From: Geosiphon pyriformis
Taxonomy: Eukaryota; Glomeromycota; Glomeromycetes; Archaeosporales; Geosiphonaceae
Assembly: GCA_016748015.1 (NCBI GenBank)
Contig: JAAOMT010000502.1
Span: forward strand, 438,519 to 502,518
DNA: 64,000 nt
Direction: 5' to 3'
Shown here one piece after another: positions 37,430-64,000 of the stretch. The translations under genes were made by a program, and so were the position numbers. Numbering within the stretch: position 1 is the stretch's first letter; the number at the start of each line of letters is the position of its first letter. A model generated the notes under the pieces. The model made no database searches. It was not told where the DNA came from and saw nothing but the letters and a program-made list of their open reading frames with translations.

Positions 37430-40400
37430 AACTACTACCTAAAAAAATATATAATCGTACAAGATCTTATATTAAGTGTGGCTCATGCTTTTTTTACATG
37501 TAACCAGCCACTCGGGCCAATCAAGACAGCATTATACACCTAAACTACTTACTACAAGAAAGTCACGCAAAAAACCGAAATGCATACTGGCCAAACAAGG
37601 ATGCAACCCAAAGCAAACATGCATATCCAACCTGATGCCAAAATCGTGAATCATTTTAAAAGACCACAAGGATGATAAACCAGGTCAAAACCACAGATTT
37701 ATCACGTGGCAGAAGACCATGTTTCTCATAATGCACCCTCAGTTTGGTAGCCAGCAACCACATGGCAGATCTGTAACTCTCAGTGAAACCTCGAACCAAA
37801 TTAATGACCAACAAACTATCATTAAATCCAACACCCAACAAATACACTGTGTTAGCCACCCATTCTTTTATTACAAAACTCTTAGCTAGTAACATATATA
37901 AATAATTAAAAGACTAAGCCTCACATAAAAATCAGACCACCTTATAATTAGTAGTGCAGGCACCCAGCAAAACAGTCCATTCTTAAATAGTATTCGATCT
38001 CAGTTCTTTCTTAACATAATTATTATGGATGCATAAAAACATATGGTTAAAGTTCTCAATCAATCCACACTAGATGCACAACACACTAGAATAACTTGAA
38101 TTATATAAACTTTTTTTCTTGGCCACAGACAAGCAATAATACAAAGCCTTCATAAAATAAGACCAAAGCATTGCAGATAAAAAGCTGGTGAAGCCAAAAT
38201 AAATTTGACCATCAGAATACCATATATTAAAGATCTTATACATATTAAAAAAATTGTAAAAAGTTTTATTTACAGCATTATTAATACATTTGAATTTCCA
38301 ATCAACAAAATTAATAGTCTTAAACAAATGCCTAATAAAGTAACAGACATTCTCAGAAACAAGTCTGTCTTTAATGACAAAAAGGCAATATAATACTTTA
38401 ACAAATAACATGAAATTAGATATAATAGCAACATCAACAAAAAAATCTGCATGCTTATTGCCAACAACACCAGAATAATTCTTGATCTTGTTTTAATTAA
38501 CTAACAGATTTTTAGACATAATAGTTTGGAAAATATGGTTCTTTTTTATCTAATATTTATCACAAAAGTTGAAACTAATATTTTTTCTAATTTAAATATG
38601 CATATTCAATAATGCTTAACTATTTATGAATAATATAACCAAGCTAAACACAAAAACACATTCTAAAACAAGAACAATAAACTGCAATTCCACTAAAATT
38701 AAAAAAAAACAAGCTATATACCCTAATCTTTATACTTATATTAATGTCTAAAAAGTAAGCAGCAGTATTACTGTAAGCATTTACAAACTTTAAATTTTTT
38801 ACTAATCTATTTATATAAACAACTATATTATCAGATCTATTCTTTATAAAATATTCATTAACAAAACCAAAATTGTACAAACAACCACCAAAAATAGAAT
38901 AAGAAACTAAGGCATTATTACTAACTAAACTACTATTTCAATAAAATTGACAAGCAAAATAAACTAACCAAAAACTAAACTCTTAAAATCTAATTTTTTT
39001 ACTTGTAAAATATATTTTATATAAAACATATGCTTTAATAGTTTAGAAGTTGATTCACAAAAACAATACCAAATCTTTTTAACAAATCTACTATACTTAA
39101 ATAATATTCTAAGTTCAAGACATTTATAATAGCAATATTACTACTAGCTCGAAAAACATTAAGTAGATTATCACTCAAAAACAACTCACATAATACCAAA
39201 GTATTGATCACATCTATTAAAAAACAATTCATAAAATTAATTAAAATTTTGATTAAAAAACTAAGAAAGTGCTAAGAGATTTAACTAATAGTCTGTAAAT
39301 TCATAGATTTGTGTTTGAACAATCTGTCAAAAATTTTCTTTGAATTAGCAAAGACTACTAAATTAGCCAGCAAATTTTTACACTGTATCTGCCTAAATAT
39401 TTTAAAACCATATAGTTCAAAATAAAAAATGGTTTTATTGGAAAAGTTTTTAGATAAATTGGTCTTGAGTTTTAGTTTTTTTAATATTTTGTCTTATTTT
39501 TTATATACACTTACTAACATATAACTAAATTATATTTTGTAATCAATTATAAGCTACAAAACAGCAGACATTAAATATAAAAATTGCTTATTAGAAATGG
39601 CTTTTTTTAAAATCATATTTGTAAAAAACTTTATTTTCAAGTAAATCTTGACCAGACTTGGCTTGAAAAAACTATTTGTAGACAAAAAAATGTCTAATAT
39701 TTATAAAATACCCACTTTTTAATTATTAAAATATTTGATCTACTTATTAACAAGCATAGAACTTCTGCTTTTCAATTGTTAGATATAGTAACTATTTTTT
39801 TTATTTTAATTAAAATATTATTGATCTGAAAAAATTCATTAGTAATATTCAAAATATATTAAGTAGCCATTATACTATTTCTAATTTAAATTGTATTATT
39901 CATAAAAACTTTAATTGCCAGAAAAAAAATTATATTATTTTTGAAATTCTGCTTGCTAGTCTTTATAAAAAACTTTAAATTCAATCTAGAATTATATAAA
40001 TAGTTATGTTTTTTAATTTTATAAAACAATGAATCATAAAAAATTTTTTATAGTAGTGGTAAAAAAACTTTTTTTTAATACAAATTATTATATGTAATAT
40101 GCTTTTTTGTAAACTTAAAATTTGTTATCATTTAATTGACTTGATTATTGTATATATTCCCAAAAAACTTAATAAAACATAAACACATCTTGATTCTAAT
40201 CAGACTGTTTTGTAAGTAATACTATCCAACAGAATTGTATATTTTATGCATATTCTGAAAAACCAATTACAGTTTTCTGTTTTTTTTAACACATTTTTAA
40301 TCACAAAACCAATAGTAAAAATTGAAATCTGAGTGAATATGCCTTCAAAACTAAAAAATTATTATCATATAAGATATTAAATCTACTATAGACCGAAAAA

Positions 40401-41503: not shown

Positions 41504-42464
41504 TATTATTAGTAAAATTTTAGCTATTAACTAGCATAAAATTATTCTTATAATTCTTATCATTAATATACATATATTATTATCATTTTAAATTATTATT
41601 TATTATTTAATCAAATTATTAAATATTACTATTTAATTAATAACCTGATTTATACAATAGAAATTAGGATGATCAAAATTAAACAATATTTCGAATTATG
41701 TAATATTTAAGAATTTGCTAAAATTAATAAAAATTTGCTAAAATAATAGATAATTCACTAAAATAGTTAATAGTTTATTAAAATATATCTTTAGTTTATT
41801 GAAATTATAGCAAAGAAGAAAATTTAAGTTTATAAACTAGTATTATAACAAATTGTATAAAAAAAAGCTTCTCTTTTTAAGAAAATGTATCTTATTTAAA
41901 ATTATCTTAAAATCAATTATTTTACACACATTTTCACAAAAAAACAAATAAAAATTGAATATTTTGAAAACCCAACTTTTTTAAATAAATTACATTTAAT
42001 ATTTTCTAAAATTCAACTAATATTTTGAAATTAATTAACTACTAATTTCAGTAATTAGTTAGTGATTTTAGACCTAAACAAAAAATGATTTCTCTTGACA
42101 AAATTTTATTTTTTTTGTAATTTTTTTATTTTTATTATTTTTTTATTATTATAATTATTAAGATAATCTGCAAACAAGATTTCTGTAAAAGAATTGGCTT
42201 TTTACAACAAAGTAACTACATATTTTAGTAAGCTTCCAGATAAGCAATTTTTGGGAAAGAGTTAACATTTACTATAATATAACTATACAAAGCAACTGGC
42301 ATAAAATTGGCCATTCTACTTATAAGTTCAGTAGTTCAAATTATAGAAAATAATTTAAAAATAAATTTAGTTATCAGATGTCTACTAGCTTCCAGAAAAT
42401 GTGAATTAACAGCAAACAAATATTAACAACATTTAAGAAAAAATACCAAAAATCTTCAGTAACA
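41504..42464 (+). repeat. 5' LTR of gypsy B
   Basis: 961 bases, matching 48,545-49,506 along its whole length; in the stretches compared the differences are nearly all transitions. It ends CAGTAACA at the primer-site junction. Confidence 0.88.
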
Positions 42465-44000
42465 TTTGGTGTTCTTTTATGAAAATAACACAGCAATAAC
42501 AACTTTAAAGTAATGACTACATCAAACATAACAATGCTAAAATATTATCAATTAATTTACACTTACTGCAAATAACAATTTAGAATCTAAAATAAAATTA
42601 CAGTCTTTAAGAAAACACTTTTTTAATACATTAAAAACTGAATCAATGAATATCTTTTTAGAGACTACAATATTACAGAAGTCAAGAAAAACTTTTTTAA
42701 AAATATTATTTACTACTTAAATAGAAACTCAAAAAACATTAATGTTAATAAAACAAATAAACATTCAACTATGCAAAGAATATATCATGCTTTGTAATAA
42801 CTAATAGTGTTCAGAATATTATATAATTAGCATTTTCTTACTTAGTAAAAACAATAAATATAAAATCAAAGTTAGAAAACCTGAACCAAAAGAAGAAATT
42901 ACAATAACTCTAATCTATTTTATTGAAAATCAGCTTGTAATATAACTCTAATATTTTAACAACAATAAACAAGGAATAAGTTCTAAAAAAGCCAATGAAA
43001 TAAATGCTGAATATGATTTATAATACCCAGAAAAAAACACTTGAGTTCTCCAACAAAAATTTTTGACAAAGATTAACCTAAAAATTGCCATTAAAATTTT
43101 ACTAGAAGCAATATTCAAATTGCTTCTTGATCATTATTGACAAGCAAAAAAATCAACATTAGAGAAGGAATTATAAATGCAAAATATATTAAAAACATTA
43201 CAATTCTGTTATAAAATAAAATTAATAAACTATTCAAAATTAAGCATGTTGAAAAAATTGCTTAAACAATCTATCTATTGTTAATTAAAATTTTGGATAT
43301 ACAATTAGTCAACAACAGAAAACAATTAAGAAAAAGTGAAAGAGAAACCCAAAGTTTTGGTTCAACTGGAAAATTTACAGTTTTAGTAAATATAGTTTTT
43401 AATATACAGAATAAATCTTATCAGATTTTTTGACTTTCTTAACTAATTACCATCTTATTTTTTAGAGAATATCACGAAATCTACACTTGTTTAAAGTCTA
43501 CTATCACTCAACAAATTTTCAAATCAAATGAACAAATCTGTTTAAAACATAAAATTTTAATTCTAAATGTTTATATCCCAAAAGAAATAAAAAAATTTTG
43601 AGTTATCTTTTACAATTTAAACAGCCATTTTATCATTTTATTAAAATAAAGTAGAAATTCGAATTATATATAGCAATATTTTTTAAGATGAAACCTCTCA
43701 AATTGTCTTTAATTTTATCAAAATTATAAGACATACTCTATTTTCAAATCCAAACATTATTCTTATAATTGAAAACTACCATATTTTAAAAAAAAAACTC
43801 TTTTGAATTAACATGAATTCTTTAAAACCCTAACAACAAAAACAATTAAAACAGTTGATTGCCAAATATGCCAATATATTTATTAAAAATAATAATAATC
43901 TGGAAAAAAATGATATTATACAGCATTAGATTCATACAAAGAATGCTTTACTAAAATATTAATAAGTCTACCAAGTTCTATTGGCTAGTTACCAATTCAT
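42465..44000 (+). other. Gypsy B gag/leader region, unreadable
   Basis: This internal stretch lies where gag and protease should be. Stops are frequent in every frame, and I found neither a zinc knuckle nor a protease motif. By eye there is no CpG from 42,241 to about 43,460. Confidence 0.5.
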
Positions 44001-44069
44001 CAGAAAAAAAATTCAACAAATACTTAATAATAGCTTTATTTAATTATCAAAAAGCTCTTAGGTTTCACT

Positions 44070-47000
44070 AGTAATCCTTATAAAAAAAAAAATGAAAAAA
44101 TCAGATTTTGTGTAAATTATTAACAACTAAATAATATTATAATCAGAGATACTTACTCATTACCAAGAATTGACAATATACTAAACACTCTTAAAAAAGC
44201 CAAGTTTTTATCAACTTTAAACTTAAAAAATAGGTATTAACAAGTTAAAATAGATCTTAAAGACCACTTTAAAACAGCATTCACTATTCAAAAAAAAAAT
44301 TATAAGTTTAATATAATGTATTTTGGACTCTGTAATACACCAGCAATATTCCAAAAATTTATGAATCTTGTTTATGAAAGACTTTTATGACAATCAGTAG
44401 TCATTTATTTAGATAATATTAATGTATACTCTCCAAGTTTCGAAGTCTATTTGATCTATTTGTAAGAAGTTTTCAACAATTATAAAAAGCAGAATTAAAA
44501 TTAAACATTAAAAAATGTTACTTTAAAAAAACAAATTTGATTTTTTTTGGATATATTATTAGCAAAGATAAAGTTCAAACCAATTTAGGAACAATTAATG
44601 CTGTTAAAAATTTTCAAGTTCTCTGAAATACTACAGAACTAAAAAAATTTGTAGAATTAATCTTTTATTACTGAAAGTTTATTAAAAAATTTTTAGAAAT
44701 TACTAAACTACTTAATTACCTAATCAACAAAAACATAAAATATCAATAAATACAAACTCAACAACAACTATTCAACACCCTTAAAGAAAAACTTATCACA
44801 GTCTCAATTTTTACTTATTCAAATTTTAATAAAAGATTTTAGTTAGCTATTAATACTTTATATATAGCTTTTGGTACTATCTTATCATAATTGGATAACA
44901 ATAGTAATAAGCAAATAATTGTTTATGCCAGAAAAACTCCCAAACCAACTGAATTCAAATATGAATTCACTAAATTGGAAACAGCAGCTATTATTTGGAC
45001 TCTAAAATACTTTCAACAATATTTCCAAAATAGACTTCAATTTAATATTATCACAAATAATATTGGTTTCAAATAGCTCAACAAAAAAAGCTCTGAATTT
45101 AGTGCTAAACAATCTTGATGGTTTGATTTTCTAACAAACTACAAATATATTGTCTACTACAAATTAGGCAAATTGTATACAAATGTAGATAGTCTTAAGA
45201 CAAAATTAGAATCAATATCAACAAACTACTAATTTAATAATAGTCAACAAATAAAAATAGATCCTAAAAACTACAACAACATTAAAAACTATCTAAAGAT
45301 TTTTAACATATTAGAAAATTGGTTTCTAACTGAAAAACATTAATTATAACATTAATTCAAACAATATTTTCTGCATTACAACAAAATTTATTATTAAAAC
45401 TATTAAATCTAATAAATTTATTCAAATTAGTCCAACAAAATAAAAAAAACACTCTTATATAACATATATACAGATCTTTTATTAAAATATCTAAGAAGAG
45501 ACAACACAATACAAAAAACATAAAAACATTATTTTTGGTCTTACATGTATCAAGATATTTAATAGTATATAAAATTATGTAATAGTTATTAAAGAAAAAA
45601 AGAAACCTGACTCATTGAATCTTTAAATCCAATCAAAGTTGGACAACTATTTAACAGAATAGGAATTAATTTAGTCAGACTATTACTTATTATCACTCAA
45701 AGAAATTATTATATTATAGTCACAATAGATTATTTTACCAAATAGTCTAAAACCAGAGCTATTTAATAAGCAAATGCAAAATCAGTAGCAAATTTTATTT
45801 ATAAAAACATTATTTGTAGACATGAATGTTGTTACCCAAGTTGAAAAACCAATCCGAAGTTATGAAAAAACATGACCAAAACATAACATAACACAGAATA
45901 ACGTTGAATAATGCATTATAACTTAGAATAGCACAGAATAATGTATTACAACATAGAATAACACAGAAAAACACATAATAACACTAAATAACGTATTATA
46001 ACATAGAATAACTAGTAATAATGTAGAAAAACAAAGCAATAACAGAAATAACAAAGCAATAGTTAGCAATAATGAAACAATCAGAAGCAATTCTATAAAA
46101 CCAAAAAAATGTATAAAAATGAGTAGTTGTAAAAAATAAAAAAAAACAGACAGATAGATATGAACCACTAAACAAGAATCAAATATCTATACCCCTTTAT
46201 CATTTATTATATTTCATATTCATCTTCTGAAATAAATCAATTATTAAGAAATCAGAATCACAAATTAATGTTTTTAAACTTTGTGAATTTTATGTGAATT
46301 AATTATTGTTTCATATCTTCGTTTTAGAACAGATGCTCTTAGCATAATCACCTTGAACTATTAATGATTTGGACCAATCACTCTTGATTATGGTGATTGA
46401 TGATACTAATTCTTTTCTTTCTTTCTTTCTTTTATTTTTTTTTTCTTTTTATTTCTTTTTATTTCTTTTTATTTCTTTTCTTTATTTTTTTGTGGAGCAG
46501 CAACATAGTAAAATCAACTGTCTGAGAATAGACTTTATGATAGCCTGGTAAAAGAAAGAAGCTCTTTCTAGGTTTTTGGATATTAACATTATCTTAATAG
46601 CTTACTAAAAGAGCAAAAAGACAATGCCAGACCTTAAGAGACTTATAATCAAGATTAAGCCACTGGAATTACATGAAACATGCCTTACCAATAATTGAAA
46701 GCACCAAATATTACCATCTTTTTATCTTACCAAGTTTATTTGTAAAAATGTCTAATTGAACTTTTATTTGATCAAAAAACACATTTTGTAAACAACTTGA
46801 TACAAAAAATTTGTAAACAATTTAATATCAAACAATCTTTATTATCACTATATTATCTATAAACAAACAAATTGGTAGAATGTTTTAACCAAATATTGTG
46901 TAAATTATTAGCCAAAGTCTTAACCAATTTTGAACAAAAATAAGATATCTTTATTTTATTAGTGTTACTAGCATACAGAATACTAAAACAAAATATCATA

Positions 47001-47420
47001 AAACACATATTTTTTGATCTAACTTATAGAAAAACAGCAATATTACCAATTAATTTTACTGTGAAAACATATTCAGTACAACCAATTAATAAAAAACTTT
47101 TAGAAAACATTTTAATGAAGAATCTATATTCTTTTTAGTACTTTGGAAAAGAAATAACAAATAATAGCCATCTATATTGAACATTTTTAAGCTCAACAAA
47201 AAAAATAGCATGACAACAAATTGCCACCAATTACTAATAAGTTCAAAGTTAAAAACAAAGTTCTCTTATACAAAACTAAGACTAAAAAACAATAGAGCAG
47301 AAAATTTAAACATAAATGACATAAACCATTCTATATTTATGAAATACTAGGCAATAGATTATATAAGTTAAGATTTGATAACAAAGTTTTAGCAAAAATT
47401 GCACATGGAAATTAATTAAA
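44070..47420 (+). pseudogene. Gypsy B pol: reverse transcriptase, RNase H and integrase remnants
   Basis: RT blocks: IRFCVNYQQLNN (about 44,100-44,140), LPRIDNILNTL (about 44,165), FLSTLNLKNRYQQVKIDL, then FGLCNTPAIFQKFM and the active-site motif YLDN (44,406-44,417), where YLDD is expected. RNase H is open at 44,891-45,076 (KLETAAIIWTLKYFQQYF). The integrase catalytic core starts near 45,630 (IGINLVRLLL, DYFTK) and is interrupted at 45,829 by solo LTR C. It resumes at 46,752 with LLFDQKTHF-like remnants and the YHPQTN-type block (about 46,850-46,890). Numerous stops, mostly where Gln, Trp or Arg are conserved, prevent translation. Confidence 0.85.
45830..46747 (+). repeat. Solo LTR C inserted in gypsy B integrase
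   Basis: It starts TGTTACCC and ends TTTGTAAAA (expected ..TAACA), with the duplication ATGT at 45,826-45,829 and 46,748-46,751. Removing it and one ATGT rejoins the integrase reading (CRHEC, then the L.SD..THF block). It shares layout with the LTRs of A, namely a TTTCT-rich stretch (46,410-46,490) followed by a CTGGTAAAA motif, but is not the same sequence. Its left part holds many AATAACA/AACACAGAAT-type near-repeats (45,880-46,070). Several CpGs survive, unlike the surrounding element, which fits a younger insertion. The strand is inferred from the layout. Confidence 0.75.
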
Positions 47421-48544
47421 ACATTATTATTTCAGAAACAATTCTAAATCATTAATTCCACAAATTAGTATATATTTCTTTTTAATAATTGCTAAAGATA
47501 TTTTTTGAAACTTAGAACCAATAGTTATAATAGAACAACAACCAAATTTGAATATTGAATTTAATATTAAAAATACACAAATATAAAACAAAAATAGTAA
47601 ATAATTACAAAAAAACCCAAAACCAAAAATATATAAAAACCCAATACCCAAAAATATTTTTGTATTTTTTTTTTAAATTCTTTTTAAAATTTTACTTTTT
47701 ATTTTAAATTTTTTTAAATTGAACTGCAGAGTGTCATCATCTCTTCTTTCCAAATTATTTTTCAACTTTGCTGGTAATTTCAAAGTTTTCAAGTTATCTC
47801 TTGTTAAAACTAAATTTTATGCCAAAGCTGCTGTCTTTTAATTGCAATTTTATTTTTTTAATATGATTATTTTATGAAATATTTAACAAATATTCCAGAA
47901 ATTAATATTAACTTTGAAAACACTCCCAAACTTATTCATAACAATTAATGAAAGTCAAATTAATTACACTCAAAAAAAAACTACAATGTCAATAATAAAT
48001 AATTCTAAGAATTATTACACTTATAAAAGAAACACAAAAAGTTATTTTGGAATTCAATTATCAGAACTTTTGAAGCAAACATTAAAAAAAATTTTTTATT
48101 CACTCTTATTAATATTTTACCAAAAATCACAACACAACAAAAACTTCTGTAGTATTTTAATAAACAGAAAAATAAATATACTTTTATATATAGATATTTT
48201 ATATTGGAAAAACACTTTATGAATAAAAATTAGAACTTGTAACAACAAATCTTACTCCTAAAGCTATATAAAAACAAATTTACAACAAATTTAAAACAGT
48301 AGTTGGATCAACAAACACTTGTTATAAACTCAAAGCAGTACTTAGTTTCTATAACTTAATACTTGCAAAAACGTCTTATAAAATCTAATACTTCAAACAA
48401 TAAAGATTCAATACATTGACAAACTCACAAAACTAAAATTTTAACAATTTTCAGACCAAATTACTATGATTATTTTGGACTACTATCTCAATATTACAGA
48501 TAGTATTTGAATTTTAATGGAGTTTAGTTTTGAAAAGGAGATTA

Positions 48545-49506
48545 TATTACCAGTAAAATTTTAACTATTAACTAGCATGAAATTACTCTTATTATTAATT
48601 TGCATATATTAATATCATTTCAAATTATTACTTATTATTTAATTAAATTATTGAATATCACTATTTAATTAATAATCTGATTTATACAATAGAAATTAGG
48701 ATAATTAAAATTACACAATACTCTAAACTATATAACATTCAAGAATTTGTCGAAATTGGTAAAAATTCACTAAAATAATAAATAATTTACTGAAATAGTT
48801 AATAGTTTAACAAAATATATCTTTAATTCATCAAAATTATAGCAATGAAAAAAGTTTAAGTTCAAGTTCATAAACTAGTATTATAACAAGTTGTATAAAA
48901 GAAGAACTTCTTTTTTTAAGAAAATATACTTTACTCAAAATTATTTTAGTTAGAATCAATTATCTTATACACATTTTCACAAAAAAACAAATAAAAATTA
49001 AATACTTTGAAAACCCAACTTTTTAAAATAAATTACACTTAATATTCCTTAAAACTCAACTAATATTTTAAAATTAATTAGCTATTAATTTTAGTAATTA
49101 GTTAGTGACTTCAGACCTGAACAGAGAATAATATTTCTTAACAAAATTTTATTTCTTTTACAATTTTTTTATTTCTTTTTATTTTTTATTATTATAATTA
49201 TTAGGATAGCTTACGGACAAGATTCCTGTAAAAAAATTGATTTTTTACAACAAAATAACTACATATTTTAGTAAGCTTCCAGATGAGCAATTTTTGGAAA
49301 AGAGTTGACATTTACTACAATATAACTATACAAAACAACTGGCACAAAATTGGCCATTCTACTTATAAGTTCAGTAGTTCAAATTATAAGAGATATTTGA
49401 AAATAAATTGAGTTATTAGATGTTTACTAGCTTTTAGAAAATATAAATTAACAGCAAACAGATATTAACAGCATTTAGAAAAAGAGACCAAAAACTTTTA
49501 ATAATA
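48545..49506 (+). repeat. 3' LTR of gypsy B
   Basis: 962 bases, preceded by a polypurine tract and ending AATAATA before the target duplication CTAT. It corresponds to the 5' LTR end CAGTAACA through C-to-T and G-to-A changes only. Confidence 0.88.
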
Positions 49507-50670: not shown

Positions 50671-51629
50671 TTTAATCTTATAGAAAACCAGCACTAACAA
50701 CAATTATTCAAAAGTGACAGAATCAGAAATAATAGGAACAAACTATTTAGAATTTGCTAAATTCTTATTTTAACAATACAGCCAACAATTGGACTTAACC
50801 AACAACTATTATCCAATAGAATCAGCCTTCAATTTTTACATTAATGAGAAAATCACAGATTTTTTAGAAAGACCAGTTGATATTGAATCAGACAGAGAAA
50901 ATTTCTATACAGAATTAATCTAACACATCAGCTTATCATGAAATTATAGTTTTGTACCAATTATCAAAAAAATTAATCAAGAAATTGAAAAATACACTCA
51001 ACAACAATTCCCCATTATTTATGCAGATAAAAGTAAAGGAAAGTTACAAACCCCAGCAGTAACTCCAAAAGAAATACAACTACCAACGTGAAAGAAACAA
51101 AGAATCAAATCTCTATTATATCTATCATACCATCACACATCCAGAAATACCATTAATATTACATTAACAGACATGTTCACATTAAACATGACATCAACAT
51201 TTGGATGACTTCTATTTTAAAGTAAACAAAAAAAAGCAGAATTATTAGGAATCTATAATAATTACTTCAAAGAATTTAAATTGTAATTACCAACACCATC
51301 AGAATTTTAATCACTGCCACTTTCACCAGATTTTGGAACTGGAGATAATGGCATTAAAAAAAATGAATAAAGAGGATCAAGAATTTAATTATCAAAATCT
51401 GATCACAGAAAATTCAGAAATTAAAACTCTGAATATTCAAACCCAGCAAGCTCTGAATAATCTAAATTCTGAGTTAATTAATCAAGAAAACTTATCTTTA
51501 GAAATTGTCATCAATTAGCAACCAATTAATCCGATTACTAAACAACTTCAACAGCCACCAATATTATCCCAACAATTATCCCTTCAACCACCATAACAAC
51601 CAAACTTAGATCCAATGGCCTATATCCTA

Positions 51630-52410: not shown

Positions 52411-52658
52411 ATAATCAATGATTAGGAAATCAGTATCAAAACTCCAATTGTTGGTTTCAAACTCCAAGTTACCAACCAAACCCAGAACCATATCATCAGA
52501 ATTACCTATCAATGACACAGCAACCAATATATTAACTGCCAATATATCAAACTCCAACATCTGTAATATATTAACCATAGTTATAAGTAATATATCAGTC
52601 TTCACAAATTCAAACACCATTACAAAACTTACCTTAAAATGAAATCCAAAAGCCAAAA

Positions 52659-53240
52659 ATGACACAACAAAGCTGGAGATCAGTGATAGTAGTCCATCAA
52701 TTGATTCTCAGTTCTTCAGCTCAACTATCAAGATCTCGACAGCAGAATTTGGGCACTGGGTACATTCAAAACCCAAATTTTCAACACTATTTAAGCCTTT
52801 TAGTAATCCCAAAAAATGCTTTATCCAATAACTTAAGAACCAACCAAACAAAACCACTTATTACCAACATACCTTCAGCCATTGTTACCAATGATGAATT
52901 ACTAGCAGCAATTTTTCTGTTCGAACTTAAGGAACTATCATCTATGCCATTGTTCAGTGGAGTCATGCTCAAAGAAAAACCAATCACCACTATGTACACA
53001 GATGCTAAAATTGATAGCCATCCCATTAAACTAATATTAAATAGTGAGTCAGCAGGCAGCATTATCACATAACAACTTATGGACCAATTAGGTTGCTGAG
53101 TTGATTGTGCTGCCAGCACCAGAATCATAACAGCTAATAGAGTGACTAAAACTCCAATTGGCAAGATTGATGACCTTTTCATAGAAGTCAACAGCATCAT
53201 AGTACCAATTAAAATATTACTTATGGAAGCCACTTAGTAT
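52659..53240 (+). pseudogene. Gypsy A aspartic protease region
   Basis: An open stretch (52,659-53,072) ends in IDSHPIKLILNSESAGSIIT and continues past a stop through RVTKTPIGKIDDLFIEVN and KILLMEAT. This is a retropepsin-like protease in which the catalytic DSG reads NSE (53,040-53,048). Asp to Asn and Gly to Glu are both single G-to-A changes. The protease would be inactive. Confidence 0.75.
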
Positions 53241-53969
53241 CAAGCACTCGTTGATAATGACTGGTTGTTCAAAACCAACACAGTACTTAACTGAAACATC
53301 CAAGAACTGCAGCTTAATTAAAATGGCCACCACACATGTGTGCCAACCACTTGTGGTCATTTCAAGACCATTACCAATGACAAGCTGCTTATCAAATTGG
53401 AAGAAGAAGAAAAAAAACCTACTTGGAAAGCCTACTAAGTTTCATGAACTAACATTGAGCACAACAAGTTATCATTAGTACTTTTCTGAAATAACAAAGA
53501 GAAAGAAAAGGAAGAAAATGTAGCAGAAAAAAACACCATTACCAAAAAGATAATTAGTGGCTGGGAAAAATCCTACTCACACAAGTCACTGAAACAACTG
53601 CCATATATCTTACTCAAATACCAAGATTATGACAAGAAACTTTTTTCTATGGAAGCTTGGATTGTGCTCAACAAAGATTACTGAACACAAACCTACTATT
53701 ACTGCAAGTCATGTTACAAAAAACAGTATGGCTATCTAAAATGACAAGGCAAGTGGGACAACAAACTATGTCTCACTTGTGGGGAACAGTTGCTCAACAA
53801 AGGAATGTGAAATGATATTCCTAGTCGAAGAGAAATGTATGACACTTTGTGCCAGTACATGATTCTTATAAGCAACTGGATCAGTCATGGCACTCTTATT
53901 ACTGCAGTCTGGTATTGAGCAATAACTTGTTTGGATGGTTATTCACACAATAAAAACGAGATCTAACAG

Positions 53970-54815
53970 ATGACAAATGCCAAAGTTGAAAGAGCCACAC
54001 CCAGCAAAATATTGGAAATCAAAAATAATTCTTTAGAACCAGTTGATATCATTCTTATTCCAAACCCTAATGCTTTTCTCGACATAGAAACAGGCCCAAA
54101 AGAGTTTCATGAGCACTATCAAAATTTGGCACAAACAAAAGAAGAGCAAAAACAGCATTTGGAAGAAATAAATACTCAATTATGTGACTACTGTTTGATT
54201 CCATATGACTTTCAATATTGTAATAAATGTGATTTCATTTACAATCCACTACCATGCATAATCTACACAATTCCAAAAGAGGAAGAACCAATCAACAGCT
54301 GCACATCAGAATCAGAATCAATTTTCAATCTTGATTCAAACTCTGACAATGACAATAATAAAAACAACAGTTCTAGCTCTATGCAAATTGGCAATAACAA
54401 TACTAACAATTTGAACTTAGATTCAAACTCCAAACAATACATTGCACTTCCTGATCTCTCTAAGGAGCAAGAACTCAGATGGTTCAGTAACAACAATAAA
54501 AGTATTATGCCAGAACATGCAAATAATACTGATGCCAGGTTTGATTTAAAATATCCAGAGAAAGACACTATTAAATTGGAACCATATTTGTGCACATGTA
54601 TTGATCTCAAAGTAGCATTAGAAATCCCAGCAACAACAATAGTTCAACTAGCATTTAGAAGTAATTTAGCAAAAAAGGGAATTAACATCAGAGGAAGAAT
54701 AATTGATACAGGATATGTAGAAAATATTGTTGCAATGCTACAAAATGACTCAGAAAAGGCCTACATTATAGAGCCAAACAAAAAAATAGCACAGACAATA
54801 TTTTCCTCTGATTAA
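53970..54815 (+). CDS. Gypsy A linker protein between protease and RT, 281 codons open
   Basis: This is the longest uninterrupted frame in the decayed element. It contains a Cys cluster CDYCLIPYDFQYCNKCDF (about residues 72-89) that looks like a CxxC..CxxC zinc site, an acidic/Asn/Ser-rich middle (ESESIFNLDSNSDNDNNKNN) and a C-terminal part ending AFRSNLAKKGINIRGRIIDT and YIIEPNKKIAQTIF. The end resembles the dUTPase-like fold found in some retroelement polyproteins (the GI.IRGRIID and later blocks), but I offer that only as a possibility. It is probably a segment of the original polyprotein, so its ATG need not be a real start. Confidence 0.55.
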   Translation: MTNAKVERATPSKILEIKNNSLEPVDIILIPNPNAFLDIETGPKEFHEHYQNLAQTKEEQKQHLEEINTQLCDYCLIPYDFQYCNKCDFIYNPLPCIIYTIPKEEEPINSCTSESESIFNLDSNSDNDNNKNNSSSSMQIGNNNTNNLNLDSNSKQYIALPDLSKEQELRWFSNNNKSIMPEHANNTDARFDLKYPEKDTIKLEPYLCTCIDLKVALEIPATTIVQLAFRSNLAKKGINIRGRIIDTGYVENIVAMLQNDSEKAYIIEPNKKIAQTIFSSD

Positions 54816-54834
54816 AATAGCCCAATTAGTATCA

Positions 54835-57800
54835 ATGAGAAACTGGGAAGAATTAGGGATTACAGCTAGAGGGATACAAGATTTCAGATATATGAATAGA
54901 ATAGATATATCAGTCAATATGGCAGAGAAAGAAGTTGTTGACAAAGGAGAAATTATTTTTACCCATCAATCAATCTTCATTATACTATATAATCAGTACA
55001 TAGTAGTCATAAAGAAAAAAATAAAGGATCAGATTCAGATTTTTGAGACAGAAGCAACACTTTGTGAATTAAAAGAGATTGAATTAGTCAATCTACACAT
55101 ACCAGCCAAAAACTAGAGTTACATCAAAATTTCCATTTACAACAACATGAAAAACACCATTGAGATACCAAAAAGAACTATTATTGAATAATTAACCTCC
55201 AAAATTGAAGAACAATCACCAAAACTCATTCCAGACTTTTCACAACTATGTGAATATATAGATATTACATCTCAAACAATATATGGACAAGAAAAATGTT
55301 ATCTGCTCCAATCAGAACAATTGGAACAGATGAACATAAAAAATTTAGACTCACTACAATATATGTAGCTTAAGATATTATTCAACAACTTCAATAATAT
55401 TTTTGCCAGTGAAAAACAAATTTGGCAGAACTAATATCATTCAACATCAAATAAAACCTGGAGATATAATGTCAATTAAGCAAAGAGCATACAGAGTATT
55501 ACCAGCCAGTTATGAAATCATTTGTTAAGAAATCAATTAAATGCTTGACAACAGGCTAATTAGCCATCAATAAGTTTATGGTCATCACTGGTGATACTAG
55601 TCCATAAGAAAAATAGAAAAATCTGCTTTTGTGTGGATTACTGAAAACTGAATGGAGTAACCAAAGGAGATAACTACCCAACACCAAAAATCCAAGAGCT
55701 GTTCGATGCTTTTGAAGAAAAAAAATAGTTTTCAACTTTAAACTTAGATAATGATTACTGGCAAGTAGCCATAAAACCAGAAGACAAGGAGGAAATGACT
55801 TTTACAACTCGAGAAAGAAATTTCGAATTTGAAGTGATACCATTTGGCTTGATAAATGCTTCAGCCACATTTCAATGGCTTATGGAAATTGTCTATATGA
55901 GACTGCTATGGAAATTAGTAGTCATATATCTGAATGACACTAATGTGTTCTCAAAAACATTTGATGATTATCTACATTATCTTTAACAAGTATTTGAAAG
56001 ACTTAGATGAGCAGGATTGAAATTAAATGCAAACAAATGCTTTTTTAGAAAAACAGAGCTAAAATTCTTGAGACATGTTGTGAGCAAAGATGGAATCAAA
56101 ATGAATCCAGACAAAATTAAGATAGTTAAAAACTTTTTAGTACTCACCAACTTGACAGAATTAAGAGCATTCTTGGGATTTGCTGAATACTACTGCCACT
56201 TCATTAAAGACTTTTCCAAAATAGCTCAACTACTATATCAACTTTAAACAAAGAATACCAAATACAAATAGACTGAAATCCAACAAAAAGCCTTTAATAT
56301 ATTAAAAAGAAAGCTTATTCAAGCCCCAGTATTAATTTATTCAGACCACAACAAACCATTCATTATTACCACTGATGCATCTTGACAAGCTTTGGGAGCA
56401 GTAATATCTCAAAAAAGACCAGATAAATAAAAACACTTAGTAGCTTATGCCAACAGAAGCTTAAGTTCAGCTGAAAAAAAACTATAGAACTCTAGCATTG
56501 GAACACTTAGCTATCTATTGGGCTGTCACCAAATGAAAAAAATACTTGAATCAAAAATTTGATGTGTATACTGATCACAAAGAATTGACTTCAATCCAGA
56601 AGCAAAAATTTGGAGATAATTGTCATACCAGATAGAAAATAGATCTTTCCTTATTTAACTATACAGTAAATTATAAAAAAGGAAAAGAAAACAGAAATGC
56701 CAACAGTTTGTCATAAATGAAAAAAATCTAAAAACATTTTAACCCAAAAATATAACAAAAAATAAATATACAAAAATATTAACAACTCCAACATTATATA
56801 AATATACAATTGTTCAAGAAGAAATTATCTCAAAAAGAACAAAACAACATAAAACAACAATCAAAATATTTTATTAAATATTAAAATATACTTTACCAGA
56901 AGTATAAAAGAAATCCAAATCAATTAACTAGAGTAATTACAAAACCAGAAAAAGAGACAATATTATTTAACATATACTTAAATCCAACAACAGAATATTT
57001 TCATAAAGAAGCAACCATAGAAAGAATCAGAAAAAAATATTATTGGCCATCAATATATTCAAACATCATCCAATATGTTCAAAATTGTGATGCTTGTCAG
57101 AGAAGAAAAAGAACAAAATCCAGTAAACTATTAAGACCAATTAAAGTGAGACAACCATTCAATCACATTGGAATTGACTTAATTAGACCATTAACCATAA
57201 CCAGCAGAGACAACAAATATATTGTAGTAGTCATAAATTATCTTACTAAATGGCCAGAAGCAAAAGCCATTCAAAGAGCAAATGCAGAATTCATTGCCAA
57301 ATTCATTCATCAAGATTTGATCTGTTGACATGAATGTCTAAAAGAATTATTATCAGATGAAAAAACTCACTTTGTGAATAGAACATTAGCAGAACTAAGT
57401 CAAAGATTTGGAATCAAAAGACCATTATCATCACTATACCATCTACAAACAAATGAGTTAGCTGAAAAGTTTAATAAAACATTGTGTAAAGCAATTGCCA
57501 AAATTAGCCAAGATCAGCCAAGAAAACCAGAACAAATGGGATTTGATTATACTATTAGTATTATTTGCTTATTGGACAATGAAACAAGACACTACACAAG
57601 CAATACTATTTGAGTTAGTATATGATAGAACAGCAACATTACCAGTTAAGATAAAAGTCAAAACCTATCCAACAGAACTAATAACAGAAGAAAATTTTCA
57701 AAGAACATTGTTGAAAAGAACATATAACTTAATGGAAACACTAGAAAACAAATAGCAAAGAACAGTTGATAACATTCAAAAGTCACAAGAAAAACAAAAA

Positions 57801-58180
57801 AAAAGACATGATAACCAACTATCAGATAAACCAGTTGAATTCAAGATTAGAGACAAAGTACTTTTACATCATACCAAAATGAAAAAACAATGGAATAGAA
57901 AATTTGACTCCAAATAAGATGAACCATTTTACATAGAAGAAATTCTAGGAAATAGAGCTTATAAATTAAAATAGAACAACAAAATCTTAGCCAAAGTAGC
58001 ACATAATAATCAACTGAAACCATATTACCATATAGTGTCATTATCCATCAGTAATATTCCACAATTAGGAGTACAAAAACTACTAGTTTAACCAGATGAG
58101 ATTTCACAAAATTTGGAACCAATAGTAGTTATTGAACCAAACACATCAAATTGAACAACCAAAAGAGTATATAAAGACAT
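54835..58180 (+). pseudogene. Gypsy A pol: reverse transcriptase, RNase H, integrase
   Basis: RT: GRTNIIQHQIKPGD (about 55,425), FCVDY-stop-KLN (55,627-55,653; TGA at 55,642 where Arg is usual), FSTLNLDNDYWQVAIKP (55,729-55,779), FGLINASATFQWLM and the active site YLND (55,927-55,938) instead of YLDD. Thumb/connection: LRAFLGFAEYYCHFIKDFSK. RNase H: ITTDAS-stop-QALGAVISQKRPDK (about 56,365-56,427), VYTDHKELT. Integrase: zinc region ERIRKKYYWP..CDACQRRK (first His of HHCC now Tyr), core IGIDLIRPL, INYLTKWPEAKAI, LSDEKTHFVNR and LAEKFNKTL, so the DDE residues survive. A C-terminal PFYIEEILGNRAYKLK block (about 57,929-57,970) follows. Frame changes and many stops make it non-functional. Confidence 0.92.
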
Positions 58181-58843
58181 GATATATGTGACAAAAACAA
58201 CAAAGAAAAATGAAAATATCAGAGTATATTCACACTTTAGCTTAACAATTGTTTTAGGCTTTAAGTCAACAACAAGTAAACATAGAAATTATCATTAACA
58301 ACCAAACAATCTGTTATTGAAACACCAAACAAAAAGGGAAAAGTACATTATACCAGCAACCACAGAAACAATTAATAAACTGGTCAGATAAAATAGTAGA
58401 GAAAGTAAAAAACACTTTTGGAAAGATAACCATTATTATTCCAACAAAAAAACTGACAAAAGAAAATTGGAACCAATAGATAGACTAACTTCCAATTCCA
58501 TACTGCTACTATTAATTGGAATAAAAAGTAGATATTCAAAAGTTATATCTTGATAAATCCAAGAGAATCTTTAATCAAGAAATAGTCTGGAACATTAAAG
58601 ACATTATTGGAAAAAAAACAAACTTGACATTAGACATCAAGACTATTTATCGACTACACACTATATTTTAAAACTACTCAGAAGTATTGTTATATTCTGA
58701 CATAGAAACAATAACTATCAATCAATGGAGAAGAATGAACAACTCACAAATTGAAGAAATAAAGAGTAGAATGGAACAGATGCTACTTGAAAAAGAAGTA
58801 TTTGATATAATTCAAAATAAAAATTTTGATGGAGCTCAATATT
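58181..58843 (+). other. Gypsy A 3' internal region
   Basis: Downstream of integrase are broken frames without recognised motifs. They may be the C-terminus of pol or an extra reading frame. The stretch ends in the polypurine tract. Confidence 0.4.
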
Positions 58844-58858
58844 AAAAGGAGGAGATAA
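58844..58858 (+). promoter_or_regulatory. Polypurine tract of gypsy A
   Basis: AAAAGGAGGAGATAA lies directly before the 3' LTR start TGTTAT; it primes plus-strand DNA synthesis in LTR elements. Confidence 0.8.
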
Positions 58859-59661
58859 TGTTATTTATAAAAAAGAAAACAGATATAAAAAATAGTAGAC
58901 CAATAAAAAAGTAGTAATTAGCATGTAAACACATTGCTCAGCAATGTGGAGCAATGTCAGAAATCATGGCACATTGCTCAAAAAATCATAGCACATTACT
59001 CGAAAATGTAAGCAATTTTATAGAACATTAATTATGTATATATAGTGGTAGCATTAGAAGAAGAAAAGACAGACCTTTCAGTTTAGATTTGATCTAAGCA
59101 ACCTTCCACATCACAAATATCAATAAATAATTATTTAATATCTCAAATTCACTCCACACTATCAACACTTTATGTTGATAATAATTGATACTTAATCTTA
59201 CTAGAATAATAACTTTTGATTATAGCTATTAATAAGATATTAACATTTATTGTCTTGACTTATTTCTTTATTTTTCTTTTATTTTCTTTCTTTTCTTTTG
59301 CTTTGTTATTTTTTTTTATTAACTAATTGATTAAAAAGTAAAAGCACTAAGTTATTAATGTCACAGATAACCTAGTAAAAAACCCAGAAATAAGGGTATA
59401 AGATTTATAAATTAATGGATAGCTTACTAGAAGGGCATGACTGCCAGAATAAACTGGCCACTATGTTAAAGACAGAAATTGGGAAAACAACTTGAAAAAT
59501 CAATCAAAGCCAACCATAGTGAATCTCTGTTTATTATACAAAGGACTTAACCAAAACTTTCAGATCATAAAAATCTTCAGAAACCAACATCATTATATCA
59601 ACTGAGTACCAAGTTATAAATTTGTTATTTGCTTTGAGATCCCAAATAATTATCTGTAACA
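58859..59661 (+). repeat. 3' LTR of gypsy A
   Basis: 803 bases, homologous throughout to the 5' LTR, with some indels. Compared stretches (50,187-50,252 with 59,198-59,263; 50,545-50,640 with 59,555-59,650) differ by transitions only, as far as read by eye. Confidence 0.92.
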
Positions 59662-61340
59662 CTGTTTAACTAAACTTAAATTAGCAAAAGCACTAATATA
59701 AAAACCTAAAATTATGAATGAAATTTTACTCTTAAATAAAAACCAAATAAAAATAAGTTAACTAAGAACTTCCTTTATTTTCAAACATATTAAGCCAGAG
59801 AACTGTCTATAATTATTGTTATATTAGTTTCAAAAAAAATTTTATCCAAATTTGATGTAAAAACATATATCTTACTAAATTTGTTTACAATTTACAGCTT
59901 AATACTAGATCTTAATTTTGTTTTCATAATAATTAAAACCATATTTTTTAAATTTACATATTAGTAAACAACATTTTTCTGCATAATAAAAACATTAATA
60001 CTTCAAGTATTACATGTAGCAATTTTTTAAACTAACTTAATTATTAATAAAAAAAATGCTCAAGTCCAACTCAATATTTTTTATTTTGGTTAGCAAATTT
60101 ATAACCATTTCTGACAAATTATTTATATTGTCTTCCAACTTAAAGACAACTAATAAATCAAAAAACTTTGCCTTTATAACAGTTTTATTACTTGTAACTA
60201 TACTTAAATTCTTACTTATTATTATATCTGCTTTTTAATTTTATAATAAAGAAATTATCAATGGTTAATATTCAAGACTAAACTAAAAAACTGTTGATTC
60301 AAGTGTATTTTATCTCTTAATTAATTTATTAATTTGTTTTATAAAATTGATAAGACAACACTTAAAAGCAGCAAACTTATTATTTATTTTCAATATAATT
60401 AGTAAAAAAAACATTATTTCTGAAAAAAAGCCAATCTTTAAAAAACTATTTTGCACAAAAAAAGAAAAAAACAAAGAACTATCAACAATTTAAACTTAAG
60501 TTTTACTATCAAAAAAGACTAAACAAGCTATTAAAATCTGTTTTTTTTATATATGTTTGATTCTGTAATAAAACTAGTTTTTTGCTATAGCTATTTAAAT
60601 TTTTATTATTAAAACATATAATAAAAACATAACTAAATTGTTTATACTAAGTATAAACAACTAATAATAAATCAACTTAATACAAATTTACATCCTTAAA
60701 AACTAAAGTAAAACCAATAACAGTCTTTTTTAATATTTCATTAGCAAAACAAACAATTATATATCTGTTATATTCATATATACTTAGATTACAGTCAATA
60801 AAACAAGTTTTTTCACCATATTATTACAGATTAAAATAACAAGCTAACAGATAGCAAGAGAAAACAGAATTGTAAAGTAATAGAATTAATTAAAGAGAAT
60901 TCAATTTCAATAAGCAAATTAAATAAATATAGATTCAATGTGCAAGATTGGTCTTATAAAATATTTCAGTCACTATTCTTTTCAAAAAATAACTAAAAAA
61001 TTTAAAAGTAAAAGAATAGTTTGTACTATCAACAAATAATAACACACTGGTATAATTCTATGCCTTATATTGGTACTTTTAAAATTCAATATCAGATATT
61101 AAATATGCTTTTTAGTTATGTTTTATTTAATAATCTTTAAATACTATAATTATACAAGTCAGAAAAAAAATTGATAAATGCCAACAAGTAATTTTTTATT
61201 CCAAAATGTTCAGATACTTAAAGATAAGGAAAGAGAAATTAGCAAAAAAATAAAAATTAAGATAAAATTGCTATTTTATTTTTCAGTTTTCTTTGATTCT
61301 TATATTTTTTTTACAATTAAGAGATTTATTATTTATATAG
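59662..61340 (-). mobile_element. LINE 5'-side segment, right of gypsy A
   Basis: CpG-poor and AT-rich like the other LINE pieces. A clear minus-strand frame lies at about 60,050-60,240 (VVFKLEDNINNLSEMVINLL), with hydrophilic helix-like composition. It is assigned to the interrupted LINE because gypsy A's target duplication places it next to 49,829 before insertion. No endonuclease motif was recognised, and frame continuity across the A junction is not preserved, so this part of the assignment is weak. Confidence 0.4.
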
Positions 61341-61354
61341 CTATTGAAAGTAGT

Positions 61355-61487
61355 TAATAATTAAGTCAACAATTAAATCAATGATCAGAACAATAATTAG
61401 ATCAATAATCAGGTTATTAATCAGATTAATGATTAAGTTAATAATTAAGTCAACAGTTAGATCATTGATCAGATTAATAATTACTAT
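61355..61487. repeat. Imperfect tandem repeat, about 12-base periodicity
   Basis: Runs of variants of ATTAGATCAATAATCAG and ATTAAGTCAACA repeat about ten times, containing TGATCA/TTGATC cores. No gene is seen in it. It lies between the LINE segment and gypsy D. Confidence 0.7.
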
Positions 61488-64000
61488 TTAAAAATAAAAT
61501 AGCTAATACATGTGATAACTAATATAAAATATGGGTTTTAATTATAATATTATCTTCTTCAAAAAAATTGAGCTTTGGTAAAATCAAGTTATTTATAAAA
61601 TAATCTATTTGAAAGGTTTTGTCTAATTTAAAACTAACTAGTTTATTGAAATCTTATGTAAATAAGATATATAGTATTTAAGATAAAATAAGTTTTGTAT
61701 CCAAAAGATTATATCTTTGTATAAAAGTTTTGACTCTTTTAGTAATAGTCAAAATTCTTAAGATATCTAATTGTATAATACCCAGAATTTCTATTTGTAT
61801 CTCTGAAGTTGTTTTCTTCATGAGTTTCATATTTTCTATGATTTTTCTAAGATGATTCATAAAGTTTTAGTTGCCTTTTATATGACAAGTTTTTGTCTAT
61901 AAATAAAATTTTCTTAATTGTTTTTTCAATTGTAATAAAAAATAAGAGTATTACTGCTGTTATACTTTTTAGCAGATATTTATCTATTTTATTACCAATT
62001 TTTTTTCTTTTGCTAATGGTTTTCTTTGGTCTAATAATAATATGTGTTCTATTGTTATCAGTTATAGTGGTTTGTTATTCAATAGTTAAAGTAGTATTTG
62101 GATTGTTTTTAATCCAATACTCATGGAGAGTATAAAAGATGTTTTAAATATTTTGATCTAAGAAATAATTGTTCATGTTAATTGAAAATATCTTTGTTTT
62201 GAAAATAATGCATTTATTTATACTTGATTTTTGTTGATTATTTGAGTTAATATTATCACAACAGATAACCAATCAAGTCATTTGTAATATTTTTTGAATT
62301 GTATACCATAAACAGAGTAATTATTAAAGATTTTTCTATATTGATCTTGTAAAATATAAAAACCATTGTTTAAAACTTTGTTAACTATAAAGAGTTTTTT
62401 TTACCAGCTAGAAAACTTATTATTATAGATATTGTCTCTGTCTAAACAATATTCTAAAACTAGGTTACTAATACTTAAAGAAAGTATTTTATAAGTTTTC
62501 TTCTTCTTAAACTTTTTTTGAAACTGTTTTATCTTTTCAAAAGCTATTATTCATGCTTCTACCAAAAAATTAAGAATAGTATCAAGTCTTCTTTGCAAAA
62601 TATTTTTGTAATTTTTTATTGTGATTTTTTTAAAGAGTATTATCTCAATATTATTTTTTATTGGTAAAATTGCTATTTATTCATAGAATAGATAAAAAAG
62701 TTTATAACTGGTTATGTCATGATCCAGGCTTACAAGCAAACAAAGCTAAAGACAATATTTTGTCTTATAAGTTTGTTTTTTTACTGGTTTTAGTTAATGT
62801 TTTACATATAGTTTTATTGAAACATTCTATTAGACTATTTGTTTGAGGATGATAAGAAGAAAAGAGTTTATGATATATTCTCATTTTTCTACAAAGTTTT
62901 TTAACCAGTGTACTAAAAAAACTCTTCTTCTGTTAGATAAAAGTTTTTTGGAACAGCTATGATGGCAAATAATATTTTCATAAATAAAATTGACTATGTA
63001 AACTACTGTTTGGTCTGAAGTGGCTTTTGCTTCTATCTACTTTGTAAGATAGTTAGTAGCTGTGATAATATATCTATTGTCATTAGGAGTTACTGTTAAA
63101 AGTCTAACAATATCTATACCAATTCTGTTAAATAGTTAACCAATAGAAATTGGATAAATACTTTCTTTGTGATTGGGTTTTTTTCTTCTTTAACAGATAT
63201 TACAGATTTTGATATATTCAGCAATATCTTTTCTTAAGATAGACTAATAATAGCAAACTAAAGTTTTCTAAATTGTTTTTGTTTTTTCAAAGTGTTCAAC
63301 TAATGAATCAATATGTATGTTATAGATCATAATTTCTTTTTCTTCAAATCTAATAACTCTCTAGAAGTGGTCAGAATTTTTTTTATAAAGTTGGTTCTGG
63401 CAAATCAAATAAAAATTTGATTGTTTGCACAAATATTTTCTTTGCTGTCAAGTATAATTCAGTGAGTATTGTCTTTTACTCAAAAATTCTATTAGTGCAG
63501 AATAGTTGTCCAAGTATATTATTGTGTTTGGTTAAAGAGAAGTTACTAATAATTAAATTGATTTGGTTTGTGAAGATTGTACTATCACTGAATAATAAGT
63601 CTGAAAAGAACATTGGCATTTTAATAATTTGTTCTTTTGTGATGTTAAATATTATAGTCAAATTTATTCAGATGAAATATTTAGCAAGTTATTTGTTTGT
63701 GTTTCAGCTTTTTTTTGTTGTGTAGCCAAACCAAAGCTTAATGATCTGTTACTACTAAAAACTTTATATCAAGAAGATATTTATCTCAATAACTAGTCTA
63801 AACTACTGCTAAGCATTTTTGTTCAGTAACTAAATAGTTTTGTTCTGCTGATAAGAGTGTTTTACTTGTATATACTATAGCATATTTCTTGCCATTTTTA
63901 TTTTTTTGTAAGAAAATAACACCAAGTTCATAACTAGATATATCAATATAAAAGATAAAAAATTGATTCAGATCAGATTACATAAGTATAGATTTTGTAA
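61488..64000 (-). mobile_element. Ty3/gypsy element D, decayed pol fragment running off the window
   Basis: On the minus strand an RNase H block is plain: FIFYIDISSYELGVIFLQKN (about 63,900-63,960), YAIVYTSKTLLSAEQNYLVT and LVVTDH (63,735-63,890). It is followed by integrase remnants: a zinc-region end SVISVKEEKNPITKK (about 63,170-63,215; the second Cys of CxxC replaced by Val), the core (FIYENII-like, about 62,965) and a YHPQTN..ERFN-like remnant (SSSNK-stop-SNRMFQ, about 62,815-62,850). Stops are frequent. RT lies beyond the right edge. Downstream (61,488-62,660) broken frames should include the rest of pol and perhaps an LTR, which I could not delimit. It differs from A and B, so it is a separate family. 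Confidence 0.8.

Follow-up and report, generated by a model that had tools for sequence, protein, structure and literature searches.

The stretch of the Geosiphon pyriformis genome analysed here (C114:438519-502518, 64,000 nt, hereafter the window; the genome comprises 124.7 Mb in 406 contigs) contains, besides a gene half, two Ty3/gypsy-like long terminal repeat (LTR) retrotransposons, element A followed by element B, each flanked by a 4-bp target duplication. Copies of both elements have undergone a loss of C:G to T:A pairs, and the extent, context and possible cause of this decay are described below. The location of the two elements, of further repeat DNA that lies next to element B, of two coding sequences that serve as controls and of the cytosine methyltransferase loci of the genome is given in Table 1. 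In the gypsy-like element B, the dUTPase domain occurs upstream of the reverse transcriptase fragment.

Table 1. Features of the window and cytosine methyltransferase loci of the genome
Feature	Location	Strand	Evidence or remark
Element A 5' LTR	41504..42452	+	blastn repeat unit, 85.1% to 48545-49494; CTAT at 41500-41503
Element A interior (approximate bounds)	42465..48541	+	GC 0.22, CpG observed/expected 0.11
Element A 3' LTR	48545..49506	+	matched by blastn as far as 49494; terminal TAATAATA reaches 49506; CTAT at 49507-49510
Element B 5' LTR	49830..50651	+	blastn; target duplication CTGT at 49826-49829
Element B interior, decayed gag-pol	50652..58858	+	CpG observed/expected 0.07
Element B open stretch with dUTPase domain	53967..54812	+	Pfam PF00692, E 8.5e-11
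Element B reverse transcriptase fragment	55729..55983	+	Pfam RVT_1, E 9.7e-8
Element B integrase zinc-binding fragment	56885..57325	+	Pfam PF17921, E 3.6e-15
Element B 3' LTR	58859..59661	+	blastn; CTGT at 59662-59665
Further repeat DNA, unclassified, with transition excess	59662..64000	.	4.3 kb, CpG observed/expected 0.00
Kinase gene (gene-family control)	35144..35788	-	Pfam PK_Tyr_Ser-Thr, E 9.6e-35
Tandem coding repeat, polyubiquitin by inspection (second, weaker control)	10107..10949	-	translation; 228-bp tandem units
L001, L005: small stand-alone methyltransferase and its duplicate with broken frames	C318, about 30 kb apart
L002: BAH and methyltransferase pieces	C355		BAH E 1.5e-11, over cut-off
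L006: BAH and methyltransferase pieces	C327		BAH 21.1 bits, under cut-off 30.8
L004: DNMT1-like			by inspection
L007, L102: DNMT2-like			by inspection

Transition excess and direction of change in LTR copies

In full pairwise alignments, the two LTRs of element A differ by 110 transitions and 12 transversions (110:12; this notation is used hereafter) over 939 aligned positions and those of element B by 87:8 over 802. Multiple alignments, in which 30 genome copies were aligned for each of the two LTRs, give 111:12 and 91:8, respectively. A first-pass annotation of this DNA had described the paired LTRs, in the stretches compared by eye, as differing by transitions only in element A and nearly so in element B. 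The ratio over the full LTR alignments is indeed far from normal and the strong excess stands, but with 12 and 8 transversions "transition-only" is overstated and "about ten to one" is the right description.

Close pairs located elsewhere, for which single-insertion status was assigned from spacing and strand, are more extreme, with 76:1 on C373 and 86:3 on C366 for family B and 103:7 on C325 for family A. A younger family, C, was reached from a copy in which a long reading frame is still open, and its LTR pairs differ by 34:0 on C394, 18:0 on C203 and 22:1 on C373. The C203 and C373 pairs of this family are the two most similar among 153 pairs. The two C394 LTRs resemble one another no more than they resemble the rest of the family (0.952 versus a family range of 0.913-0.974). 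Exact 4-bp target duplications flank both window pairs and the C394 pair (ACAT). The family B pair on C373 (L053/L061) is flanked by target-site copies CTAC and CCAC, one C/T apart, as if the target duplication itself had decayed. The C394 element (LTRs L084/L085) encodes an integrase in a 1918-aa open frame, yet its LTRs, with their exact target duplication, differ by 34 transitions. When LTR matches are binned by identity, the ratio of transitions to transversions drops with divergence, from 21 at 88-90% to 7 at 86-88%, 8 at 84-86% and 3 at 78-80%, as expected when transitions saturate.

The excess extends beyond the LTRs. The interior of element B differs by 211:10, 244:8 and 242:8 from those of L043, L042 and L044, respectively, and in the eight copies compared the proportion of C/G sites that differ is 0.33-0.42 for interior DNA as against 0.31-0.43 for LTR DNA; the decay of element B is spread over LTR and interior alike. 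Interior copies of element A found elsewhere show the same feature (111:14 for 46925-47720 against L023, for example). Further repeats of the window, at 60819-62723 and 63163-63979, have an excess like that of the LTR elements, with 246:36 for 60851-62332 against L057, 238:45 for 61213-62723 against L046 and 149:22 for 63163-63979 against L012.

Two rules were applied to the direction of change, one based on copy frequency and a stricter one based on a 70% majority that leaves many sites unresolved. The three pairs of family C differ by 74 transitions, and at these sites the 16 remaining copies have a majority of C/G in 70 cases, of T/A in two and are mixed in two, so that C:G losses account for 70 of 75 differences (74 transitions and one transversion). 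In seven close pairs of family B, three of which are assigned single insertions, 20 of 525 differences look like gains, defined by C/G in less than 10% of the other copies, and in family A the copy-frequency rule gives 13 gains out of 108 and 5 out of 95. Under the majority rule, family C has 45 C>T and no T>C changes and three pairs of family B have 101 C>T, 19 T>C and 6 transversions. The C-frequency spectrum of family C comprises 207 columns with C in at least half of the copies, 22 in which its frequency is above 0 and below 0.4, and 464 with none. These data indicate that the decay of the LTR elements is mostly one-way from C:G to T:A, families B and C being the clear cases. Because every insertion begins with two identical LTRs, the differences within pairs have arisen after insertion.

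Sequence context, strand and dose

For the context tests, flanks were classified and columns permuted in families C, B and A. Loss is faster at CpG than at CpH (H being A, C or T) in family C (0.266 versus 0.074, p = 0.0005), in family B (0.487 versus 0.214, p = 0.0005) and in family A, whose CpG rate comes from only 6 columns (0.461 versus 0.327, p = 0.046). Outside CpG, a 5' T lifts the rate 1.5 to 1.9 fold, TpCpH exceeding VpCpH (V being A, C or G) with 0.106 versus 0.055 in family C (p = 0.0045), 0.298 versus 0.175 in B (p = 0.0005) and 0.445 versus 0.292 in A (p = 0.0005). The first-pass annotation had singled out CpA, the classic context of repeat-induced point mutation (RIP), and this is not borne out: CpA and CpC do not differ in any of the three families by permutation, and CpA exceeds CpT only in B (0.227 versus 0.171, p = 0.018), the values being 0.088 versus 0.054 in C (p = 0.057) and 0.321 versus 0.319 in A (p = 0.94). 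Among trinucleotides, TCA is more affected than TCT in C (p = 0.015) and B (p = 0.0035) but not in A, and TCG is the most mutated clear trinucleotide of family C (0.322 over 5 columns). A context bias relative to gene duplicates exists, as that annotation had expected, but it is carried by CpG and TpC: CpG decays fastest, then TpC, with CpA equal to CpC and at most slightly above CpT.

The window pairs give the same picture for CpA and CpT. C/T differences number 41 at CpA and 43 at CpT in pair A, where 48 and 56 C, respectively, are common to both LTRs, and 37 and 30 in pair B, where 74 and 68 are common. For CpG, the observed/expected ratio is 0.70 in family C and drops to 0.06 (B) and 0.18 (A) in the older families; the gene half, whose GC content is 0.265, has 0.79.

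The RIP composite index, which the first-pass annotation had put forward as a check, is negative or near zero in the mutated repeats. It amounts to -0.37 for the 5' LTR of element B, -0.69 for its interior and -0.25 for family C, to -0.18 for the interior of element A, -0.05 for its 5' LTR and +0.08 for the 30 pooled A LTRs, and to -0.01 for 59662-64000, with -0.53 in the gene half. With negative values in B and C and values near zero in A, a cut-off at zero would largely miss this decay, which the alignment test detects as strong and mostly one-way in these very sequences, most of which score below or close to zero. RIP of the CpA type was rejected by both the context tests and the composite index.

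Regarding strand, C/T and G/A differences are balanced within pairs, with 56 and 54 in A and 39 and 48 in B. Individual copies are missing 12-35% of the C/G mostly kept in other copies. Losses per copy have a variance to mean ratio of 0.98 in family C, which is near Poisson, and are mildly overdispersed in B (1.55) and A (1.31); on average, neither strand runs nor clustering were found in the three families (mean z -0.22 to 0.28). Balanced, unclustered hits that postdate insertion point to a site-by-site decay and not to a strand-processive deaminase acting on cDNA or to heavy episodes of RIP.

The LTR pairs of the three families range from 18:0 to 111:12, with transitions and transversions rising together from family C to family A. 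A dose proportional to age is seen only across these three families and eight pairs, and a burst followed by slow decay fits as well as a clock, the youngest family having a single transversion.

The coding capacity of element B has been affected accordingly. Of 54 windows of 150 nt taken along element B and its copies, 30 were usable, and in these 105 of 128 premature stops are explained by C>T or G>A changes, 12 of 14 in the copy of the window, even though CAA, CAG, CGA and TGG account for only 59 positions versus 245 for the other codons that are one step from a stop. The earlier proposal that premature stops fall at Gln, Trp and Arg codons is thereby upheld for most stops.

Gene duplicates and methyltransferase loci

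The gene duplicates tested do not share the transition excess. The kinase gene of the window has 41 matches listed, itself included, and 14 paralogues were compared, taken from the 40 matches beside the window gene (one of which is a fragment of another). The resulting 15 sequences form 105 pairs with 4633 transitions versus 4772 transversions, or about 1:1. Two pseudogene-like copies, L071 and L070, whose best frames hold 5 and 9 stops, differ from the window kinase by 17:10 and 44:19, respectively, about 2:1. Both are located on the contig of the window, C114, and are 90-95% identical to the window kinase. In the pieces compared (577 and 640 bp), kinase copies at this level of identity escape hypermutation. 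Ordinary ratios were also found for the methyltransferase gene duplicate on C318 (40:17 and 10:5) and between the units of the coding tandem repeat at 10111-10935 (48:26).

When compared to the pseudogene-like kinase pairs (61:29) by Fisher's test, the eight LTR pairs that were each assigned to one insertion differ strongly (536:32, p = 9e-12), as they do once the C366 pair is dropped (450:29, p = 7e-11) or when the set is cut down to the three pairs whose target duplication is exact (231:20, p = 2e-7). Since ratios in the controls are ca. 1 to 2.4, the effect in LTRs does not reflect a bias of the whole genome, to the extent that gene duplicates can tell. The transition excess occurs in the LTR elements tested and in the unclassified repeats of the window, and is absent from the gene duplicates tested.

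A profile search of the genome with PF00145 returned 10 matches at seven gene loci. Two of these, L002 and L006, combine BAH and methyltransferase pieces and are candidates for DIM-2-like enzymes; the best PDB match of an L006 piece is DNMT1. At motif VI, six of the seven loci have ENV, L005 being unreadable there, and none of these six shows the QT or ET that is given as the hallmark of RID/Masc1 at this position (PMC6572847). The search for RID or DIM-2 suggested by the first-pass annotation gave BAH-methyltransferase candidates for the latter and no QT/ET motif VI in the readable loci for the former. The clade of arbuscular mycorrhizal fungi (AMF) is said in one account to keep both DIM-2 and RID (PMC8298701), and despite the ENV motif found here a RID may be present.

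Other features of the window and genome include a dispersed repeat at 37600-38950, on the minus strand. The 39 further copies on the list are 69-79% identical, and three translated pieces of the repeat match no Pfam family above cut-off. A search for Mutator-like elements (MULE) gave 18 matches, and a scan of the window against Rfam at gathering thresholds gave none. The fungal type-I fatty-acid synthase domain PF08354 has no match in the genome, loss of this synthase being a mark of Glomeromycotina; this absence and the size of the kinase family would both suit a mycorrhizal fungus.

Readings of the decay and comparison with known systems

We favour, with a probability of roughly 0.57, a methylation-linked, clock-like C-to-T decay of LTR-transposon chromatin that affects both CpG and non-CpG sites. 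Host DNA methyltransferases, possibly the DNMT1-like enzyme and the BAH-domain DIM-2-like candidates, would mark cytosines on the chromatin of transposons, those in CpG more strongly than non-CpG ones, among which a preceding T would be preferred. Marked cytosines would then deaminate to T, either spontaneously or with the aid of the methyltransferase, with no repair back to C, and a slow, mostly one-way loss of C:G to T:A would go on after insertion. We infer that methylation is the targeting signal, non-CpG cytosines included, and it is the non-CpG component that is new. Two published systems lend plausibility to this scheme: for Rhizophagus irregularis, a high level of CG methylation is described as general among transposons (PMC8647823), and in Zymoseptoria tritici repeats have been shown to undergo dim2-dependent C>T mutation during mitotic growth (PMC8016269). 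The first-pass annotation had left the choice between a RIP-like process and non-CpG deamination; a non-CpG C-to-T decay is present in the LTR elements, while the RIP part has lost its basis in CpA.

Several observations weigh against the methylation-linked decay. Among the pairs themselves, the C366 pair of family B has flanks ACAT and AAGT with no matching target duplication, and two pairs of family A have, under the 70% majority rule, 39 C>T and 53 T>C changes with no single direction, a rule that is uninformative for this saturated family because most copies are already without C/G. In family C, the direction is less strict in interior pieces from three copies than in the LTRs, with 18 C>T or G>A changes, 5 in reverse and 3 transversions, their ratios resting on few sites (15:2, 13:1 and 21:3), and a uniform decay does not predict that a 1918-aa frame remains intact between LTRs that differ by 34 transitions. 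The closest kinase pair also leans towards C>T (11 C>T, one T>C and 6 transversions), so that genes and transposons differ in the excess over transversions and not in this lean. The ratio of C loss to transversions per site, in the tens to hundreds, looks high for a purely passive deamination of 5-methylcytosine (5mC). Finally, the methylome of R. irregularis is presented as the output of a CpG-only caller, which is blind to non-CpG methylation, and kinase families are reported there to exceed core genes in CG methylation (PMC8647823), while the kinase copies examined here are not hypermutated.

A dedicated RIP-like defence, premeiotic or mitotic, that recognises repeats and acts in a CpG/TpC context instead of CpA is the alternative that survives best, though we regard it as unlikely. 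It would be related in kind to the TpCpG pattern of Pucciniomycotina or to the dim2-dependent mitotic mutator of Zymoseptoria. Such a defence would account for extreme ratios at low divergence (18:0, 34:0 and 76:1), for the one-way direction and for TCG as top clear trinucleotide in family C, and the reported retention of DIM-2 and RID in the AMF clade (PMC8298701) would provide for it. It is at odds with the lack of a CpA rule, with the sparing of the gene duplicates tested, with the near-Poisson dose per copy in family C free of strand runs and clusters, and with ENV instead of QT/ET at motif VI in the six readable loci.

An assembly artefact, in which long reads are miscalled at modified cytosines within repeats that cannot be polished, would yield transition-only differences in methylated repeats and is very unlikely: copies are without 12-35% of the C/G mostly kept elsewhere, CpG is near zero and transitions and transversions rise together from family C to A. 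Consensus error rates are far below such a loss of C/G.

Decay of methylated CpG alone, from 5mCpG to TpG/CpA, is about as improbable, even though CpG decays faster than any other context and old families show a strong depletion of it (observed/expected 0.06-0.18). Most differences lie outside CpG, the CpA, CpT and CpC classes together making up 88 of 109 scored transition sites in pair A and 75 of 87 in pair B, and changes from CpT to TpT cannot stem from CpG. As a sole cause, CpG decay is refuted by the non-CpG sites of these two pairs.

Editing of retrotransposon cDNA by an APOBEC-like cytidine deaminase before integration would agree with the TpC preference seen in three families, but since most LTR differences postdate insertion, C/T and G/A are balanced and strand runs are lacking, we give it very little credence. 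Least probable of all is a mutation bias that acts throughout an AT-rich genome and not on transposons in particular, as the AT-rich gene half (GC 0.265) and the C>T lean of kinase pairs might suggest; it is refuted, for the gene duplicates tested, by ratios of ca. 1 to 2.4 at matched identity in kinase paralogues, pseudogene-like copies and the methyltransferase duplicate.

If the strong, mostly one-way decay found by alignment holds, calls of absence that are based on composition in AT-rich early-diverging fungi should be redone by alignment, LTR ages derived from total divergence in such genomes are too old, with transversions as the clock to be preferred, and a direct prediction is that cytosines outside CpG are methylated in these fungi. 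A link of the process to a sexual stage would bear on the debate over asexuality in this group. A more far-reaching proposal, which we put forward only tentatively and hold to be doubtful, is that an arbuscular mycorrhizal fungus whose lineage has long been held to be asexual might run in its clonal coenocyte a methyltransferase-dependent C-to-T transposon mutator of its own, RID-independent and with a CpG/TpC context, and that this mutator might have been overlooked because RIP indices seek CpA loss and composition screens have low contrast in an AT-rich genome.

Published surveys provide the setting for these results. A context-agnostic, kingdom-wide k-mer screen of 1,239 genomes from 2025 reports RIP-like enrichment only in Ascomycota (PMC12543289), and RIP is reported as undetected in Gigaspora margarita in work cited in PMC8647823. 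Among open-licence PMC papers, none was found on transposon hypermutation or C-to-T RIP in Glomeromycotina. The CG methylation described for transposons of R. irregularis (PMC8647823) compares with the CpG depletion of the old families here; the large non-CpG component of the present decay lies outside the reach of that CpG-only map.

The decay resembles the RIP of Neurospora crassa and other Ascomycota in that C:G to T:A changes affect repeats, with few transversions and with stops at Gln, Trp and Arg codons. It differs from RIP of the Neurospora type by the absence of a CpA preference, of strand coordination and, at the six loci that could be read, of a motif VI of the RID type, and by the sparing of the gene duplicates tested; in Neurospora, RIP is stated to need a duplication of about 400 bp if linked or 1000 bp if unlinked (PMC5381629). 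With the RIP-like hypermutation described in Microbotryum and other Pucciniomycotina (PMC5381629), it shares a rate raised by 5' T and 3' G and an effect on gypsy elements; there, however, TpCpG is the reported target, whereas here every cytosine context decays. Later work using the composite index reports no RIP-like signature in Pucciniomycotina (PMC12210899).

Overall, the dim2-dependent mutator of Z. tritici is the closest demonstrated process, although it differs in context. As described, it acts during mitotic growth on methylated repeats only, with more than 95% of changes being C>T (PMC8016269). The LTR pairs of family C likewise show almost only C>T, the interior pieces being less clean (18 of 26). 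More than 98% of the C>T changes reported in Z. tritici occur at CA and CG is not highly mutated there (PMC8016269), whereas in the LTR elements of G. pyriformis CpG decays fastest and CpA holds no special place.

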